Assembly (NCBI GenBank): GCA_027023405.1
Contig: JALVVN010000004.1
Span: forward strand, 1-53,800
Origin: Campylobacterales bacterium
GTDB lineage: Bacteria > Campylobacterota > Campylobacteria > Campylobacterales > QNZT01
Direction: 5' to 3'
DNA: 53,800 nucleotides
Below, in pieces: positions 2,269 through 25,578 of this stretch. The first letter of the stretch is position 1. The number at the start of each line of letters is the position of its first letter. Made by a program: the position numbers and the translations under genes. The notes under the pieces were generated by a model that was not told the origin of the DNA, ran no database searches, and worked only from the letters and a program-made list of their open reading frames with translations.

Positions 2269-4493
2269 TTCGTCCAATAGAAGTGGCGCCCCTCACTATT
2301 GTTGAGTGTACTGGCTATAGTGAAATGATCCCCTAGTTGCATCGCAGCTCGCGGGATAAATACTTCAACCAAACCGTTTTGTACCTCTAGGTGGGTATCA
2401 CCACCCTCTACAACATCCCATCGGTCTATCCAACTATCTGCTCCCTCCAAACCTCGAAAGTGGTAGGTATGTTGTAATGTTGGCAGCGAATGTGTAAAAT
2501 AGTCAGCACCGACGGCATTCATTTGATTACCGGTAAAGTGATTATTGTCTGCATCAATCGCCACATGCAAACTCCATACATTTCCATCTTGCGGATCTTG
2601 ACCGAAGTGGGCAGGATCGATCATTGGATTATGAATCTGAACGATATAGAAAGCGGGGTCACGATAGGAGAGTGTGATTTCATCATTGTCAGCTCTCACC
2701 TCATAATGCACCGGATCAACTCTGAAGATCTCCTCGTTGTTAGCATCTAGCACCCGTGCTGAGACTGCAATATGACGATGTGTATAACTCATCTGTGCTC
2801 GCGTCGGTCTCACGGTAATTTGATGATCTTGTACGGTTCGAACCAATTGTGACGGTTGATCGTTAAACGGTTCACCCCACTCTCCATCTCCTCGAAGTGC
2901 AAAAGCTTGATTATCTACAATCCGATACTCCGCACCGATGCCGTTAAACGGCACACCTGTATTGGGGTTGTCATCCTCGTCGATATAAAACTCTGTATGC
3001 GTATTTGCATTGAATTGTCTATTTTGATCTGCGATCGTAAACCAAAAAAATGCAAGATCGTGACTCACTGTCAAGTGAGCATTATCCGGAGTCACAAGTG
3101 TAATATCCTGCACTTGAGCCGGTGCATACGGATGCCATTCTTGATTGATGAGTGATCCCATCACACGAATTGTCGCAGAGAGATGCAACATATCCTTTGG
3201 AATGGTAATTGTAATATCACTATCACTCTCTTGAGGATCAACATGTCCGACAAGTGTCCAGCTCCATCCACCACCGTTGTGCTCATAAACATCATGTTCG
3301 GTAATCAAATACTCTGCTCCCATAGTCCCTAGCGAATAATCAGGATTGGTGTAACCGCTTTGTGGGTTATGATCCGCGTCGATAAAGATCGCATCTGTAC
3401 GATAGGGGGCTGTATGAAGTTGATCATTGTGGAGAGTTAGAGTCAGTGTATCACCATGATCTGTCACATTTAATCTGGAATCCGGTGTTTGACCGCCACC
3501 CTCTCCACCTGCGCCATCTTCTCCATGATCTTCAAGTGTATAAGGTGCGACATCATATCGCTCAATGACTTGCCAATCATTATTTAAAATTCCTGCTACT
3601 GTTTGGATACGATTTGCCAAATGCAAAAGATCTTGATTTACGCGAACTTGCACACTATCTCCCTCGACCCTGCGCTCAACTTGTGCGAGAAATCGCCAAT
3701 GCCATCCTGCATCACCGATATGCTCATAGAGTCTATCATCTTCGATCAAATATTCTGCACCAATATTCCCCCAATTAGGATCATGATATCCAGTCTGAGC
3801 ACTATTATCAGAATCAATAAATATTGAATTTGTATGCATCAATCCTTGAGCAATACTTGAACTTTGTATCTGAAAGATCAACTGCGTTGCATCATCACTG
3901 ACACTATAACCGTTTGGTGTAGGATTAGCTACTTCCTCTCTTAACCGATACGAAACCGCATCCGTCACACGAATCGGATCCCAATTTTGACCATTCAATA
4001 TACCGACTGCACGAATTGTATCTCCGGTATGAATCATGTTTTGAGCAAACTCAAGCTCTCTTTCATCATCGGCTGTATCTCTTTGTGAAACTTCACCGAT
4101 AAATGTCCAGTGCCATCCATTCCCCTCATAGCGATAGAGTTGATTGTTTTGAACCATATATTCTGCACCGATGTGATGAAAAGCACCATGTCCGTGGATA
4201 TAGCCGGTATTGGGATTATTATCTGCATCAATCAACACTGTCATTGCGCGTGCGTCATGACTGGCAATCGATGCATCTTGAAGCTTAAATGACAAAAGAT
4301 TATCATCATTTGTGATAAAAAACCCTTCACTCACCGGTGCCACCCCTGTCCAATTGGCACGCGTCATCTTCTGTGCTGTTGGGATGATCGGTTCCTGAAG
4401 ATTGCTTCTCCCCTGACTGACTGAACTACTCCCACATCCACTCATCATACCGATAAGTGAAATAGAGATCAGTGCATAGAGACTTTTTTTCAT
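2244..4493 (-). CDS. Putative surface or periplasmic lipoprotein with five ~140-residue repeats
   Basis: I do not recognise a named family. The start is placed at the ATG at 4493 (749 aa), which has AGGAGA upstream and begins directly with a signal peptide. An in-frame upstream ATG would put ten charged residues before it. The signal ends at MMSGC, a slightly unusual lipobox with Cys20. The mature protein holds five repeats of about 140 residues. Each contains an acidic loop such as IDADNNPNTGY (about residues 88, 226, 371, 504 and 646), followed 10-17 residues later by IGAEY or a variant. Three repeats also share a W-x-W segment. The DxDxN spacing resembles calcium-binding loops, but that is inference. 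A Gly-rich linker (about 323-337) separates repeats two and three. No catalytic motif is seen; a structural or adhesive role is possible. Confidence 0.85.
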   Translation of the reverse strand: MKKSLYALISISLIGMMSGCGSSSVSQGRSNLQEPIIPTAQKMTRANWTGVAPVSEGFFITNDDNLLSFKLQDASIASHDARAMTVLIDADNNPNTGYIHGHGAFHHIGAEYMVQNNQLYRYEGNGWHWTFIGEVSQRDTADDERELEFAQNMIHTGDTIRAVGILNGQNWDPIRVTDAVSYRLREEVANPTPNGYSVSDDATQLIFQIQSSSIAQGLMHTNSIFIDSDNSAQTGYHDPNWGNIGAEYLIEDDRLYEHIGDAGWHWRFLAQVERRVEGDSVQVRVNQDLLHLANRIQTVAGILNNDWQVIERYDVAPYTLEDHGEDGAGGEGGGQTPDSRLNVTDHGDTLTLTLHNDQLHTAPYRTDAIFIDADHNPQSGYTNPDYSLGTMGAEYLITEHDVYEHNGGGWSWTLVGHVDPQESDSDITITIPKDMLHLSATIRVMGSLINQEWHPYAPAQVQDITLVTPDNAHLTVSHDLAFFWFTIADQNRQFNANTHTEFYIDEDDNPNTGVPFNGIGAEYRIVDNQAFALRGDGEWGEPFNDQPSQLVRTVQDHQITVRPTRAQMSYTHRHIAVSARVLDANNEEIFRVDPVHYEVRADNDEITLSYRDPAFYIVQIHNPMIDPAHFGQDPQDGNVWSLHVAIDADNNHFTGNQMNAVGADYFTHSLPTLQHTYHFRGLEGADSWIDRWDVVEGGDTHLEVQNGLVEVFIPRAAMQLGDHFTIASTLNNSEGRHFYWTNRYEFTLQ

Positions 4494-4752
4494 TAATTTT
4501 TCTCCTTTTTTTGAAAAGTCCATCTATCCTAGTCAAAAAAAAGAGTCAAAGCAAGCAGTTGTAAAAATTATTTAACTAAATAGTCAATATTCCATGTATG
4601 AATTACATAAGGTAGCACAATTCACTTATTGCTTGGCAATAGAAGCACAACCTTAAGTCGGCATATGGAAATTTGTGTCATAACACTAACATCTTTCTCA
4701 TCCACTTTTAAGATACAATTCTACATAGAACACCATAGACAAAGGAAAAATT

Positions 4753-5451
4753 TTGCTGAAACAAAAAGCGTTTGGATTGTGGAGTGCCGTATTTTTAGGT
4801 ATCGGTTCTATGGTAGAGCAATTGCCGGTAATCTAGTATGAATATCTTTTATTTATCGTTATCATTAAATTAACAATTATTATCATTTTTGCAATCATCG
4901 CTTTTTTCTATATCCAACCGCAACTTTTATCTCTCAAAGACAGCCCACCGGTTTTAAATATCTTTTCATCTATTGCACTCACCTTCTTTGCCTATGAAGG
5001 ATTTCGTGTCATTACCAATACGGCAGAAGATATGGAAAATCCCGGTCAATTAATGCTTCGTTCTATGATTATTGCAATACTCTTTGTGATGCTCCTCTAT
5101 ATTACGGTTACTTTCAGCGTTTTCGGCAATCTTCCGCTTCATGAGATCATCAAAGCGAAAGATTACGCACTTGCTGAAGATGCTAAACCTGCTTTTGGTG
5201 AAAACGGCTTTATCATCATGTCTATTGCTGCACTCATCTCTACCGCCTCTTCAATCAACGCAAACCTCTATGCCGTTACCAATGTCACCTATCAAATGGC
5301 AGTCAACGGAGAGCTCCCTAAAGTCTATGAGCGCAATGTTTGGCATAGTACACAAGGTCTTGTCATCAGCACTGCTATACTCATCGCATTTGTGCTCTTT
5401 TTTGACCTTACCCAAATCGCCACCATCGGCTCTATAAAGAGGAACACTTGA
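4753..5451 (+). pseudogene. Decayed APC-family amino-acid permease
   Basis: Three permease pieces remain. The first starts at a TTG after AAAGGA and reads LWSAVFLGIGSMV, the first membrane helix of many APC permeases. It then jumps to GAIAGNLV in another frame, so the GAGIF-like segment is deleted with a frameshift. The third piece resumes in the first frame near 4840 and covers the middle of the transporter, including FFAYEGFR, the ITNTAEDMENP motif and several helices. It ends after LTQIATIGSI with four foreign residues and a stop. The C-terminal helices are missing; intact relatives have about 430-450 residues. It differs from the intact permease at 7967-9301, so it is not a recent copy of it. 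Confidence 0.85.
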
Positions 5452-5473
5452 TATCCGCATTAAGTGCTCCTCT
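5438..5473 (-). terminator. Terminator of the YfdX-family gene
   Basis: Arms of 12 bases (AGAGGAGCACTT and AAGTGTTCCTCT on the minus strand) enclose a 12-base loop and are followed by TTTATAG. The single non-Watson-Crick position is a G-U pair in minus-strand RNA but an A-C clash in plus-strand RNA. The hairpin therefore serves the minus-strand gene ending at 5489, not the permease remnant. Confidence 0.65.
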
Positions 5474-5488
5474 CTAAAACATCTTTAA

Positions 5489-6475
5489 CTATTTTACCGT
5501 TTTCTTCGCATCACTATCTGCCTCTTGTTTGAAGATCTTTGTCTCCTCTTTTGCTTTTATCGTTTCATCCTTTTCATACACTTTTACTTTTTGTTCCGCT
5601 TGATTATGCACTTGATGCTTCTCATGATGCAATTTACCGATCAGATCTCCAAAACTCTTTTTGAGTTTGTCATACAGTTTTTCAACGGCATTTTTACCTT
5701 TAATCTCCTTTTCGATCTCATTAATACTTTGTGTCAAAGCACGATATTCCGATGCGTGCCTATGGGTATAGCCTAGTAGCTCTCCCCTTTTTAGCTCCTC
5801 TTTGGCAGCTTCGAGTAATTTTTTTGCCTCCTCTTTTTTGTTTTTATCGAGCTCTGAAGCCGCAATAACCAAAGATTGTGCACTTAAGATCGGTGTGGGG
5901 ATCACACTCATTGTGGTAACAATCGTACTAAAACCCTCCTCTAATGCCGATAGTGCTCCTTTGCTATCCCCTTTCTTCAACAGCGCCAATGCTTTTTTCG
6001 TTGAAATAGGATAGAGCTTCATCGGAATGGAAACAATAACAATATCCAACTCATCTTTGAGCGGTGACAACAGTGCTCTCGCTTCTTGCGTATCGTGATC
6101 CTTAAGTAACTTTTGTGCATCTTTTAAAATCTTTTCAATCGCCTTTGAATCAGCACCAAATTCAAACGCTTCAACATTCTCTTCCACAGGAATCAAGTCT
6201 AAATTTGGATTTGCTTTAAGTGCTTTTTCAAAATTACTAGAGGCTTTCTCTAAAAGTTTTTGCGCCTCTTTCTCTTGATGCTTCGTTATCTTTTGAACCG
6301 CTTGTATTGTTAGCTCTAAGCCCTCCCCGATCTCTTTGGGTGTTTTTTTCAAATCATTCTGATGCACTTTCGCTGCCTTTTGCATCAAAACCTGCTTAGA
6401 CTCCTTTGCCTCCACGCTTTGTGCACCCAACAACAGTGCAACCGCTACCCATGACAATAAAACTCCTCTTTTCAT
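5489..6475 (-). CDS. YfdX-family periplasmic protein
   Basis: The 328-residue product starts with a clear signal peptide (cleavage near VEAKES) and is then almost wholly helical and rich in Lys, Glu and Ala. It contains segments typical of the YfdX family: a duplicated helical domain at about residues 45-250 with IPMKLYPISTKKALALL, GALSALEEGF and the closing ELLGYTHRHASEY. The C-terminal 60 residues are a charged Lys/Glu/His tail. In enterobacteria YfdX proteins are periplasmic and linked to acid or stress survival; the role here is not known. It is a single gene with its own terminator, next to the broken permease. Confidence 0.75.
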   Translation of the reverse strand: MKRGVLLSWVAVALLLGAQSVEAKESKQVLMQKAAKVHQNDLKKTPKEIGEGLELTIQAVQKITKHQEKEAQKLLEKASSNFEKALKANPNLDLIPVEENVEAFEFGADSKAIEKILKDAQKLLKDHDTQEARALLSPLKDELDIVIVSIPMKLYPISTKKALALLKKGDSKGALSALEEGFSTIVTTMSVIPTPILSAQSLVIAASELDKNKKEEAKKLLEAAKEELKRGELLGYTHRHASEYRALTQSINEIEKEIKGKNAVEKLYDKLKKSFGDLIGKLHHEKHQVHNQAEQKVKVYEKDETIKAKEETKIFKQEADSDAKKTVK

Positions 6476-20759: not shown

Positions 20760-21530
20760 ATGGATAAACAGAAAAAACAACTCTACCCTGACTCACACGA
20801 CTTTTCGATGCTCGATTACGAGTGCGCCTACTTACCGGACAAAATGGTGCGTATGCGGTACAAATATGTACTCTCGCCTACCAAGGCTTTTTGTTCTGCC
20901 GTCATTAAACGGGGATGGCGCCGTTTTGGAAAGTACTACTTTTACCCGACTTGCAACGGCTGTAACGCCTGCAAAAGTCTCCGCATCGATGTCAAAAACT
21001 TCAAACCGAGTCGCTCTCAAAAACGCGTCCAAAAACGCAATAAAGAGACGCAAATTATAATTCAAAAACCCTCTCTATCAACCATGCACATTCAGCTTTA
21101 CAATAAATTTCATGCCTATAAAAGTCAAAAGGATGGTTGGAAACAGAAGAGTATCTCCTACAATGAGTATCACGAAAATTTTGTAGACGGTGCGGGAAAT
21201 TTTGGGAAAGAGGTACTCTATATCGTTGATGACAAACTGGTAGGTGTCGATCTGATCGATATTCTCGATGACGGCATTAGCGCGATCTACTTCTTTTACG
21301 ATCCCGACTATCCCAAACTATCACTCGGTACCTATTCTCTGCTCTATCAAATAGAACTCGCACGCATTTTGGGATTGGATTGGATCTATTTAGGCTATTG
21401 GGTGGATGGATGCAAAGCATTTTCCTACAAACCGAACTTTCAACCCGAAGAGATTTTGGATGGATTTCCGGAAATTACCCAAGAGCCCCAATGGGAGCCC
21501 TTTACACTCTCTTCAAAAGGTCTTCAATGA
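20760..21530 (+). CDS. bpt: Aspartate/glutamate leucyltransferase (Bpt; arginyltransferase family)
   Basis: Members add leucine from Leu-tRNA to N-terminal Asp or Glu, marking proteins for ClpS/ClpAP turnover. The 256-residue sequence shows the family cysteine cluster in YPTCNGCNACKSLRIDV, then the conserved FKPSRSQKR and the GNAT-like C-terminal half with LGTYSLLYQIELARILGLDWIYLGYWV split over the fold. The gene stands alone on the plus strand, diverging from the DUF2018 operon and overlapping the end of the convergent ATP-grasp gene by 29 bases. Confidence 0.9.
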   Translation: MDKQKKQLYPDSHDFSMLDYECAYLPDKMVRMRYKYVLSPTKAFCSAVIKRGWRRFGKYYFYPTCNGCNACKSLRIDVKNFKPSRSQKRVQKRNKETQIIIQKPSLSTMHIQLYNKFHAYKSQKDGWKQKSISYNEYHENFVDGAGNFGKEVLYIVDDKLVGVDLIDILDDGISAIYFFYDPDYPKLSLGTYSLLYQIELARILGLDWIYLGYWVDGCKAFSYKPNFQPEEILDGFPEITQEPQWEPFTLSSKGLQ

Positions 21531-22524
21531 TAAAAAACTCTGCTCGCACCGGTGCTTCAACCCATTGAAGCTCTCTATTCCAATAACCCGGTGCATCCGG
21601 AAATCCTCTCACCGATGCCACATAGCTGATCTCAACGATCTTATATCCATCTTTGTCTTTCACAAAATCAAACGCCAAAGATTGTGCTTCAAGCTTCTCT
21701 GTCACCTCAAACGCCTTTTGGATACACTCCTGTGGTATCTCATCCCATGTCATCACACCACTACCGGACGCTCGAAAATCACCATCTCTTGTAAAACGCT
21801 TCTTGGTTAATGCACGATCTCCAATGACAAAAACTCGAATATCGTGATCACATCCTTGGATAAAATCTTGTGCATAGAGATAGTTTCTCTCTCTTGGAAG
21901 ATTCAAATAGATCTTATTTGGAAAGATATACCGATAGATCCCATAAGATATTTTAAAGAGTGATTTCAGATCTCTACTCTTCTTATAGTGCCAAATGCGC
22001 TCTTTTAGTACAGCACTTTTGCTATGAGGGAAAAAACCTCGCCCAAAAGCTTTATGTAAAAAAGAAAGCGCTTGGGAACGATTTTTTATCAACATCACAT
22101 TATAGGAGCCTGCACCGCTTCGGAGTTTAAACACTTTGGGAAAGGTTGTCTGCTCGATCCACTCTCTTGCGCGCTCTTTCTCATAAAAGACATAACTCTG
22201 CACCATCGGTGCATCAATTGCCTCTAGCAAATATTTTTGCCCCACTTTATCATCATAATGCCATGAAGTCGCAACATTAGGATAGACAAGCAATCCCATG
22301 CGTTCAAGTGATTGTGTCAAGCCTCTCGAAAAGAGCAATGCTTTAGCATCGAGCTGATCCCAATGCCAAAGCAACACATCAAAATCTTTGAGTTGTTGAA
22401 CGATATCACTATCATAGCAATTGACGACTTGATAGTCCAATCCATGATTTTGACAATACTCTATCCATTTAGGGGCATAGGAGTCTTCGACTCTCTCGTT
22501 GGTGAAATGTATCGCTATTTTCAT
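21502..22524 (-). CDS. ATP-grasp domain protein (RimK-like ligase fold)
   Basis: The 340-residue protein has an N-terminal alpha/beta pre-ATP-grasp region (about 1-110) and an ATP-grasp core. The core shows TTFPKVFKLRSGAGSYNVML, a glycine loop that contacts ATP phosphates, and YAQDFIQGCDHDIRVFVIG. The metal-binding DFVKDKDGYKIVEISYVAS has Asp and Glu in the usual places. ATP-grasp enzymes join a carboxylate to an amine or thiol through an acyl phosphate; the substrates here are unknown. It lies 4 bases after the ThiF-like gene, so the two are a transcription unit and probably share a pathway. Confidence 0.85.
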   Translation of the reverse strand: MKIAIHFTNERVEDSYAPKWIEYCQNHGLDYQVVNCYDSDIVQQLKDFDVLLWHWDQLDAKALLFSRGLTQSLERMGLLVYPNVATSWHYDDKVGQKYLLEAIDAPMVQSYVFYEKERAREWIEQTTFPKVFKLRSGAGSYNVMLIKNRSQALSFLHKAFGRGFFPHSKSAVLKERIWHYKKSRDLKSLFKISYGIYRYIFPNKIYLNLPRERNYLYAQDFIQGCDHDIRVFVIGDRALTKKRFTRDGDFRASGSGVMTWDEIPQECIQKAFEVTEKLEAQSLAFDFVKDKDGYKIVEISYVASVRGFPDAPGYWNRELQWVEAPVRAEFFIIEDLLKRV

Positions 22525-22528
22525 CCTA

Positions 22529-23440
22529 CTACTTTATCTCTCTTTGTTCAATTACGGCTGGAAATTTCGCATTTCCTTTGACTGAAATAGGACCTAAAAA
22601 GATATCTTTTGCTCCAATTGCAAGCTCAATCGCCTTGATCGCAAAGAAAGTACCGGTAATTGTTACTGCCGGTCCCCAGTTGGTACCCTGTACTAAATAT
22701 TCTCGCCCATCCGCATATGCATCAAAAAAGCCTGCCGGCGGTTCATTTTCACTGAGCAAAAGTTTATGGGCATATTTCGACTTAAAGAGTTTGCTATAAA
22801 TCTCATTGAACTCTTCATGCACCTTACGATCTTTTGCTTTAAAATCCTCTTCCGTAATATCTTCGAGTGCCATTGAAGCGGTCGGAGAGTTTTCATCTTC
22901 CTCTCTTGTACTCACATTTTCATCTCGATAATCCCAAAGATTTGCTTTGGCACCAAAAGTAAACTCTGGAATCGTATGCGCCCTTGAAATCACAGGAACT
23001 TTATATTGTTTCGCAAAGCGATGAAGCGGATAATGCGCAGATTTATTATCTGATGCATCAATAATAATATCTACCCCTTTGACAATCTCTTCCGCATTCT
23101 CTTTGTTGATCCCTTCAGGATATGTTTCTATCTGCGCAAAAGGATTGACATCTAAGAGTTGCTTCTTGCCCGCTTCTACCTTTTTTTCTCCGATGGTAGA
23201 AATAGTACAAAAATGCTGTCTATTAATGTTGGTCAATTCAAACACATCCGGATCAACCAATGTCAAATGTTTTACACCACCTCGCACGAGTTGTTCAGAC
23301 GCGATCCCGCCCGTGCCACCGACACCTATGACACCTATCTTAACATTTTGGATCTTCTGTTTCTCCTCATCGGTAAAGATCATCGACGATCGAAACCATA
23401 GCTTTTCGTAAAACTCCTCTTCAGTAAAGTTTAAAGACAT
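22529..23440 (-). CDS. ThiF/MoeB-type E1-like adenylyltransferase
   Basis: The 303-residue protein has an E1-like Rossmann fold. It shows the nucleotide loop GVIGVGGTGGIA (36-47), the acidic VDPDVFELTNINRQ with the finger arginine Arg74, and the metal/adenylate aspartate in DASDN (Asp131). These residues predict activation of a carboxylate by AMP. It lacks the CxxC zinc pairs of MoeB/ThiF. Its only cysteine is Cys78, so the usual catalytic cysteine is absent. A charged insertion (about 175-235) replaces that region. GGAG lies upstream of the ATG. It is the first gene of a pair with the ATP-grasp protein. The substrate is unknown. Confidence 0.85.
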   Translation of the reverse strand: MSLNFTEEEFYEKLWFRSSMIFTDEEKQKIQNVKIGVIGVGGTGGIASEQLVRGGVKHLTLVDPDVFELTNINRQHFCTISTIGEKKVEAGKKQLLDVNPFAQIETYPEGINKENAEEIVKGVDIIIDASDNKSAHYPLHRFAKQYKVPVISRAHTIPEFTFGAKANLWDYRDENVSTREEDENSPTASMALEDITEEDFKAKDRKVHEEFNEIYSKLFKSKYAHKLLLSENEPPAGFFDAYADGREYLVQGTNWGPAVTITGTFFAIKAIELAIGAKDIFLGPISVKGNAKFPAVIEQREIK

Positions 23441-23600: not shown

Positions 23601-24353
23601 ATGAAAGCTTCTTCCATACACATTGACACAATTTTCAATAATATTGTCTCGACAACGGAGACATGTTGTACAACTTTATGGGGATTTTCGTCCTATATTC
23701 AGACACCCGAACATACCATTCTCTTTGATACCGGTAGTAACGGTCGCATTTTGCTCAAAAACATGCTATCCAAAGGGATTGACATCCAAAAGATAGATAC
23801 GATTTTTCTCTCGCATGGGCATTGGGATCATATCGGTGGAATTGATTCTATTATCGAATTGAACCCATATGTGACACTTTATGTCACGCCACATCTCTCA
23901 AAGAATTTTATCAGAGACTACCGACAACAGAGTCGAGGCGTTGAGGTAATCGGCGAAAAACTTACCCAAATCGCACCTCATATCTACTCATCCGGCGCAA
24001 GAGGAAGCAGTTTAGAGCAATCAATGATCATAGAGTGCGATGAAGGATTAATACTCATCTTTGGATGTGCCCACAGCGGTGTTGGTGAGATTGCGAAACT
24101 CGCTGCCAAAACATTCAAAAAAGAGATCCTTCTCTTGCTTGGAGGATTTCATCTTGAAAATCGTAGCGATGAAGAGATACGCAAGCTCATGCAAATTTTT
24201 CAAGAGACCCACACAAAAACGATTATTCCGTCACATTGCACCGGTGAACGGGCTATGAAGCTTTTTCATGAAGAGTTTCAAGGAGCCTATATCCAAGGAG
24301 GAGTCGGACAGAGTCTTACTTTTGATAGTGACGGTTCAGTCGTCCTCTTATAA
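23601..24353 (+). CDS. Metallo-beta-lactamase-fold hydrolase
   Basis: The 250-residue cytoplasmic protein has the metal-binding motif FLSHGHWDHIGG (HxHxDH), the second ligand region IFGCAHSGVGEI and PSHCTGERA near the end. This pattern is typical of MBL proteins annotated as 7,8-dihydropterin-6-yl-methyl-aminobenzene phosphate synthase-like; the biochemical substrate cannot be inferred. It diverges from the ThiF/ATP-grasp pair and overlaps the convergent flippase gene by 38 bases. Confidence 0.85.
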   Translation: MKASSIHIDTIFNNIVSTTETCCTTLWGFSSYIQTPEHTILFDTGSNGRILLKNMLSKGIDIQKIDTIFLSHGHWDHIGGIDSIIELNPYVTLYVTPHLSKNFIRDYRQQSRGVEVIGEKLTQIAPHIYSSGARGSSLEQSMIIECDEGLILIFGCAHSGVGEIAKLAAKTFKKEILLLLGGFHLENRSDEEIRKLMQIFQETHTKTIIPSHCTGERAMKLFHEEFQGAYIQGGVGQSLTFDSDGSVVLL

Positions 24354-25578
24354 AAAGGATATTAAAAAGATTCACGCACACGGCAACCGTGACATACATC
24401 GCAATCGAGGCAATAGGAGTGTGGAAAAGATAGTATCCTAATAATAGAGCAAAAAGACGAAGAAAAATTTGTATAGATTGAACAATCAACTGTGTCTTTT
24501 GCAAAGAGAGCAGATTAAATGTCATGGTTGATGGAGGATTGATAAAAGAAAAAAATGCCATACAGACAATGAATTTGGCAATCAACCCCGCTTCACTCCA
24601 CTCTTGACCAAATAAAAAAGAGAAGATCTCTTCGCCCCACATTACAATAATAAAAAGAGGGGCAATATAGATCTTTAAAAGCCCTAGTGTCGTTTTCATA
24701 TAGAGTTGACGAATATCCTCATGATTTGCAAACATCTTTGCCGCTTTTTGATAATAGACATTTTGTACCGACACCGTCATGAGCGTTGTGGGTGTCATCA
24801 AAACCCGAAATGCCAATGCATAATACCCAACAACATCCGTAGAGAAAAGAAAGGGCAATAGATAGATCGGTAAATTTTGTGCGACATAGTTAATGAGCGT
24901 ACTTGCGGTTTGAAACTTTGGAAAGTGACTATAGTGTTTTGCATTGGCATAAACTCTTGTGCGAGAGATCTTTTGTAGCTGTAAGCTGTTGCGTTTGACA
25001 ATCTGTTTTAACAAAAACGCGACCGCAACCATATCTGAGAGAATTTTACCGACAATCAATCCATTTGCCTGAAACAGATAGCGACTTGAGATTTGTGTCG
25101 TCACTGTACCGATAGCACTCATAATCTTAGAGAGAGACATCACTTTATAATACTCTTGTCGATTGGCAAAGCTCTCAAAGATAAGCTGCCCACCTAAAAC
25201 CAATACTGAAACGGGTAAAAACCAGACAAGATAATCCTCTCCACCAAAGAGTTGTACAAACCAATCATAAAATATCCAAACAACTAAGAGACAAAGTAGC
25301 ACTATGGCAAAGAGGATCATCAGTGACAAAAAGAGTATTGCTTTGGCATCCTGCTCATTTTTCGGAAGAACGATCGCTTGATCATACTTGAAGCTTGAAA
25401 TGAGACCAATCGCCATTGTCATAGAAAAGAAGAGAGAGTAGATACCAAATTCACTCGGCGTATAGAGTCTTGTCACAATGGGAATAAAGGCAAAAAGTAG
25501 CGCTTGCGCCATGATGGAGCCCGATAAAAGGGTAACAATCTGCATCACATAACGACTCTCTTTTAACTTTTTAAGCAC
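24316..25578 (-). CDS. Wzx-type polysaccharide flippase (MOP superfamily)
   Basis: This 420-residue integral membrane protein has about 12 hydrophobic segments. The opening QIVTLLSGSIMAQALLFAFI and ITRLYTPSEFGIYSLFFS are characteristic of oligosaccharide-repeat flippases. The second half has LPIYLLPFLFSTDVVGYYAL. It would move lipid-linked sugar repeats across the inner membrane. No glycosyltransferase cluster surrounds it, so its glycan is unknown. The 66 bases upstream before mlaE hold no clear terminator. Confidence 0.88.
   Translation of the reverse strand: MLKKLKESRYVMQIVTLLSGSIMAQALLFAFIPIVTRLYTPSEFGIYSLFFSMTMAIGLISSFKYDQAIVLPKNEQDAKAILFLSLMILFAIVLLCLLVVWIFYDWFVQLFGGEDYLVWFLPVSVLVLGGQLIFESFANRQEYYKVMSLSKIMSAIGTVTTQISSRYLFQANGLIVGKILSDMVAVAFLLKQIVKRNSLQLQKISRTRVYANAKHYSHFPKFQTASTLINYVAQNLPIYLLPFLFSTDVVGYYALAFRVLMTPTTLMTVSVQNVYYQKAAKMFANHEDIRQLYMKTTLGLLKIYIAPLFIIVMWGEEIFSFLFGQEWSEAGLIAKFIVCMAFFSFINPPSTMTFNLLSLQKTQLIVQSIQIFLRLFALLLGYYLFHTPIASIAMYVTVAVCVNLFNILFIRGRLNRHYQK

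Follow-up and report, generated by a model that had tools for sequence, protein, structure and literature searches.

Background

The substrates that E1-like enzymes are known to activate are ubiquitin-like carriers, t6A on tRNA and certain peptides. ATP-grasp ligases are already known from loci for cell-surface polymers, where they are represented by TupA and ATPgrasp_ST. Amide-linked amino acids are common on bacterial polysaccharides, and the ligases that attach them are poorly known. A limited search of the literature found no polysaccharide system that combines a ThiF protein with an ATP-grasp, nor an E1-like partner in a locus of this kind. The ThiF-like enzymes of RiPP type, such as MccB, PaaA and GrcB, can be recognized by an RRE, about 90 residues long, at their N-terminus (PMC12250964).

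Organization of the locus

The window (the whole stretch of 53,800 nucleotides that was analysed) contains an E1-like gene next to an ATP-grasp gene. The pair and its immediate neighbours are as follows.

20760-21530, plus strand: homologue of arginyl-tRNA-protein transferase (ATE), downstream of the pair
21502-22524, minus strand: ATP-grasp ligase with a RimK/LysX/ArgX-like fold, 340 aa (Pfam RimK PF08443, E=4.4e-10)
22529-23440, minus strand: ThiF/E1-like adenylyltransferase, 303 aa (Pfam ThiF PF00899, E=1.7e-38)
23601-24353, plus strand: MBL-fold hydrolase, divergent to the E1 gene and upstream of the pair; relatives PDB 7dck, TM1679 (3h3e) and 2p4z
24316-25578, minus strand: Wzx-type polysaccharide flippase, upstream of the pair (PF13440)

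Both reading frames of the pair lie where the first-pass annotation had placed them, on the minus strand and separated by 4 bp (22525-22528). The same annotation had given them a shared promoter. When the gap upstream of the E1 gene was scanned for consensus promoters, the minus strand gave no sigma-70-like site. The two genes are divergent in five of the seven resolvable loci defined below, so that it is their adjacency, and not one common transcript, which is the conserved feature. The MBL-fold protein is clearly related to 7dck (E=1e-63). Recent transfer of the pair was considered and rejected: its base composition is not foreign, and its GC content, being the same as that of the window, gives no signal of such an event.

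The E1-like protein

Nine orthologues of the E1-like protein align end to end and are 65-88% identical to the protein of the window. The ATP loop, the Arg finger and the Asp that had been recognized in the first reading are all present, as the loop GVGGTGG (38-44) and residues R16, D62, R73, K86 and D130 are invariant in the nine. The window protein has the GxGGxG loop, the Arg finger, the NxxR motif and the adenylation-site Lys and Asp of the ThiF/E1 superfamily, and the profile of the orthologues gives an ungapped alignment with E. coli MoeB from residue 22 to 154.

Cys77 is the sole cysteine of the window protein, and it is invariant in the nine aligned orthologues and present in two later ones. 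A CxxC motif is absent. The single cysteine and the missing CxxC had thus been noted correctly. The conclusion drawn from them, namely that the protein cannot use the chemistry of MoeB or ThiF, fails because the ordinary, short MoeB/ThiF-type protein of the same genome lacks CxxC too and because the one cysteine does not vary; the zinc motif, which the E1-like protein does not have, is therefore not diagnostic of the MoeB/ThiF class. MoeB, moreover, merely adenylates MoaD.

The best NCBIfam models for the protein are ThiF, PRK08223 and MoeB, and all equivalog cut-offs are missed widely (ThiF 109 of 159 bits, MoeB 88 of 377 bits). The structure predicted for it (pLDDT 67, a medium confidence) most resembles MoeB, PaaA (5ff5), AclA (9egb) and ThiF; the best PDB match is MoeB (1jw9), and TcdA and MccB also match. 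The C-terminal half has no annotated function, and an extended region (about residues 155-255) separates the Rossmann core from the GPAVTITG helix. The Pfam ThiF match begins at about residue 21 of 303, and an RRE is missing for this reason.

The ATP-grasp protein

The model of the ATP-grasp protein (pLDDT 81) has the fold of the RimK/LysX type of amino-acid ligase, and its closest folds are ArgX, LysX and RimK. The families of TupA, ATPgrasp_ST and YheCD type, which comprise polysaccharide or coat ATP-grasps (PF14305, PF14397 and PF14398), matched none of the ten ATP-grasp members at E<=1. The protein had no match on plasmids. The E1-like protein and the ATP-grasp both look like intact carboxylate-activating enzymes.

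Distribution of the E1 subfamily

The carriers of the E1-like gene are few and are mostly uncultured relatives of Campylobacter. Full-length orthologues were found in 2 of 200 genomes of the order, in 2 of 397 genomes of the phylum, and in eight genomes of one genus of a second family. A contig scan gave eight loci, all from Campylobacterota MAGs; L012, one of the eight, lies on the contig already matched in the order sample as G069:C68. With the window included, the total is about 11 distinct Campylobacterota genomes. The next best E1 proteins of the 397-genome sample score at most 100 bits, against about 600 for the orthologues, which makes the latter a subfamily of their own; the nine orthologues also group together in a small tree (support 94/98). 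The search beyond Campylobacterota covered plasmids, phages and viral contigs as well as one pattern-based contig scan, and no orthologue was found on phages, plasmids or viral contigs.

The best full-length plasmid relative of the E1-like protein is a rhizobial ThiF (29%). It is part of a conserved five-gene unit of rhizobial plasmids, consisting of a hypothetical protein (315 aa), the ThiF family protein, a second hypothetical protein (~350-400 aa), a GNAT protein and a third hypothetical protein (~330 aa); Pfam gives no match for two of the three hypothetical proteins. The unit was found on a Shinella plasmid (L111/L127), in Ensifer (L128) and in Rhizobium (L129). It looked linked to polysaccharide genes in Shinella, and was rejected as support for a polysaccharide role since no such genes accompany it in Ensifer and Rhizobium, where it stands as a unit apart. 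On plasmids of Staphylococcus epidermidis (L113) and Limosilactobacillus gastricus (L132), a ThiF-family gene lies near genes for an MFS transporter and a regulator of ArsR type, in L132 additionally with a formyltransferase. These small plasmids recall microcin C-like clusters.

Conservation of the pair

A locus was taken as resolvable when its contig continues past the E1 gene on the relevant side, the window being counted. The ATP-grasp gene directly adjoins the E1 gene in all seven such loci (the window, L011, L014, L015, L016, L018 and L125). The two genes are on the same strand and a few bases apart in the window and in L011, and divergent across about 270-290 bp in the other five. The E1 genes of L012, L013, L017 and L126 are no more than some 300 bp away from the end of their contigs, and in genomes G201 and G206 a contig end likewise cuts off the ATP-grasp gene, which is the picture expected of a divergent pair that has been broken. 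The ATP-grasp is held by seven of the eight genomes of the contig scan. It occurs in four genomes of the 397-genome phylum sample, and both carriers of the E1 gene in that sample are among the four, for which simple counting, with relatedness ignored, gives a chance of about 8e-5 (6/78,606). The agreement between the distance matrices of the two proteins (r=0.57, p=0.006, 7 genomes) includes species relatedness and counts little. The first-pass annotation had proposed co-occurrence across genomes as a check on the pair, with homologues that always lie apart as the contrary outcome; the genes proved to be adjacent wherever the locus could be resolved, although their orientation varies. These observations support the view that the E1 and ATP-grasp genes are a conserved unit.

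Apart from one incomplete MAG (G202), the E1 gene occurs only where the ATP-grasp occurs. The converse is not true, as the ATP-grasp also stands without the E1 gene (L008, L009 and L010), in polysaccharide loci of three other genomes. This asymmetry suggests that the E1-like enzyme depends on the product of the ATP-grasp, and the presence of the ATP-grasp alone in polysaccharide loci fits an E1 that acts on, or beside, that product.

The lineage of the window and L011 differs from its genus neighbour L012 by an inversion of the E1 gene (22529-23440 in the window, 231-1163 in L012) within a shared synteny block that runs from the ATE gene to an MlaE-like permease. Through the inversion, what was probably a divergent pair has come to lie on one strand, and the neighbours are kept.

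Carrier proteins and other partners

The genome of the window encodes three E1-type proteins above the Pfam cut-off: the one described here, a MoeB/ThiF-type protein (C35) and a TcdA-type protein (C9). It has two proteins of the ThiS family, namely ThiS in the thi operon and MoaD beside moeA, and no spare ThiS/MoaD carrier beyond this house-keeping pair. Relatives that do not have the E1-like gene carry matching standard E1s. The E1-like protein is an accessory third E1. With standard E1s already present in the genome, and ThiS and MoaD both being house-keeping proteins, there is no further carrier that could serve as its partner.

The search for a nearby small peptide or carrier, which had been suggested in the first reading, gave nothing in this genome beyond these two proteins, and inspection of seven stretches, intergenic or at contig edges, showed no conserved small ORF. 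Neither an E2, a JAB protein, a cyclase nor a sulfurtransferase was seen near the pair in the inspected loci. A defence system of the CBASS, Bil or 6A-MBL type was also considered and was rejected, because the PADLOC matches are limited to the shared E1 core and E2, JAB and cyclase neighbours are lacking. In other Campylobacterota (L004, L034 and L036), E1-like genes lie beside one or two ThiS/MoaD-like genes and an aldehyde ferredoxin oxidoreductase-like gene; named by eye, this is an apparent tungsten-cofactor E1 set.

The polysaccharide neighbourhood

In L014-L018 and L126, a Wzz/BY-kinase gene comes next after the E1 gene, directly or beyond the MBL gene, and in L014-L016 and L018 two GT4 glycosyltransferases follow the ATP-grasp. 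A compact arrangement, as in L016, consists of two GT4s, ATP-grasp, E1 and Wzz. The genes after the ATP-grasp in L125 encode, in order, a GT4, a 448-aa protein, a second GT4, a protein weakly similar to pectate lyases and an initiating sugar transferase (PF02397, Bac_transf); the 448-aa protein has no Pfam match and is a Wzy candidate by position alone. L013 has a CapA/PGA_cap gene and a flippase close to E1 and MBL. L009 and L010, where E1 is absent, contain a flippase, CapA, the ATP-grasp, a Wzy_C-type protein and a glycosyltransferase. A flippase is linked to the ATP-grasp or the E1 gene in L009-L013, besides the window. The MBL gene is next to E1 in the window, L011-L015 and L125, and is missing in L016-L018 and L126.

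With Wzz/BY-kinase, GT4s, Wzx-type flippase, CapA and the initiating sugar transferase as its neighbours, the pair sits in an exopolysaccharide locus, not in a RiPP or protein-modification cluster. Several observations count against a polysaccharide reading. The module of the window, made up of flippase, MBL, E1 and ATP-grasp, forms a small island amid house-keeping genes; the Wzz genes of this genome are on a different contig; and no uronic-acid-forming gene is constant across the loci. The medium confidence of the E1 model and the unannotated C-terminal half of the protein are further points on this side.

Elsewhere in the genome of the window (L059, G000:C28:28000-46000, at 3116-6409), look-alikes of a UbiA-type prenyltransferase, GtrA, an FAD oxidoreductase and an SDR lie beside glycosyltransferases. 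By eye only, this set resembles decaprenylphosphoryl-arabinose synthesis.

Proposed function and alternatives

By combining the computed features (intact active-site residues, conserved adjacency, polysaccharide neighbourhood and no spare carrier), it is possible to propose a function for the pair, for which we infer a common substrate, the order of the enzymes, and the bond or product. In the best explanation, to which we give a little less than an even chance, the E1-like protein and the ATP-grasp form a two-enzyme tailoring module of a Wzx/Wzy-type exopolysaccharide locus in which both enzymes activate carboxylates. The ATP-grasp would convert a carboxylate to an acyl phosphate and couple this to an amine; the partners in the bond are most plausibly an amino acid and, within the repeat unit, a sugar acid or an amino sugar. 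A homodimer of the E1-like protein would next adenylate a carboxylate of the same building block with no ubiquitin-like carrier. The acyl-AMP might be resolved by an amine or a hydroxyl, leading to a second amide, an ester, or a ring closure as in TcdA or PaaA. The MBL-fold hydrolase, where present, may trim or recycle an intermediate, and the Wzx flippase would export the product.

The pair may instead make a free small metabolite, such as an amino-acid or sugar derivative, and its location among polysaccharide genes would then be chance hitchhiking. The house-keeping surroundings of the window module, and the several loci where the MBL or flippase gene is not beside the pair, agree with this. 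We regard it as unlikely, because Wzz is directly linked in L014-L018 and L126, a GT/Bac_transf set in L125, and a flippase in the window, L011, L012 and L013. Rather improbable, in our estimate, is activation by the E1-like enzyme of an unrecognised ubiquitin-like or other small carrier encoded elsewhere, either for sulfur delivery to a thiosugar or for conjugation to an envelope protein, with the ATP-grasp modifying the same carrier as ArgX and LysX do with LysW. The house-keeping ThiS and MoaD are the only such proteins in the genome of the window, no conserved small ORF lies near the pair, and sulfurtransferase, E2 and JAB were not seen nearby; these findings speak against it. In its favour are the E1 homology, the presence of MoeB and ThiF among the best structural matches, and the resemblance of the ATP-grasp model to LysX and ArgX, which act on a carrier protein.

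The first-pass annotation had favoured a peptide- or protein-modification pathway. In its MccB/PaaA-type form, the E1-like enzyme would modify a ribosomal peptide and the ATP-grasp would form a macrocycle or an amide. RiPP pathways do contain E1-like enzymes without a transfer cysteine, and PaaA (5ff5) and AclA (9egb) rank with the best matches by structure, yet the ThiF domain starts at about residue 21 of 303 where an N-terminal RRE of ~90 residues would be expected (PMC12250964). There is also no conserved precursor ORF in the intergenic regions, no spare carrier, and the neighbours are exopolysaccharide genes, so that the proposal is not upheld and a RiPP pathway appears very unlikely. That the protein is an ordinary MoeB/ThiF duplicate serving MoaD or ThiS is hardly to be expected. 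Its sequence is of the ThiF class, and the ThiF, PRK08223 and MoeB models score best; the protein, however, falls far short of every NCBIfam equivalog cut-off, genomes without this E1 have matching standard E1s, and the nine aligned orthologues group apart in the tree (94/98).

A more specific version of the polysaccharide-tailoring module is put forward tentatively, as a possible but doubtful claim: the E1-like enzyme, working without a carrier, may adenylate a carboxylate of a building block that its partner ATP-grasp has made for the surface polysaccharide, which would be an undescribed glycan-tailoring chemistry. If so, the ubiquitin-activating fold would extend to polysaccharide biosynthesis, and a new substrate class would be added to those of the E1-like enzymes. 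The conserved pair, in compact loci of five to six genes, is a tractable starting point.

Comparison with known systems

The window E1 resembles MoeB, ThiF and TcdA in its Rossmann ATP loop, Arg finger, and catalytic Asp and Lys at equivalent positions. It differs from them in having neither a spare ThiS/MoaD partner nor CxxC, in its longer C-terminal half (155-303), in forming a clade of its own and in its polysaccharide context. With PaaA, MccB and GrcB it shares an E1 fold that activates a carboxylate without need of a transfer cysteine, and PaaA and MccB are among its matches; unlike these enzymes, it has no N-terminal RRE and no precursor peptide.

The ATP-grasp of the window is similar to the RimK/LysX/ArgX ligases in its matches to PF08443 and TIGR00768 and in its fold, whereas it stays under the NCBIfam cut-offs, has about 15% identity and lies in a polysaccharide neighbourhood. 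In this last respect it is like TupA and ATPgrasp_ST, being an ATP-grasp within a cell-surface polymer locus with a probable role in amide ligation.
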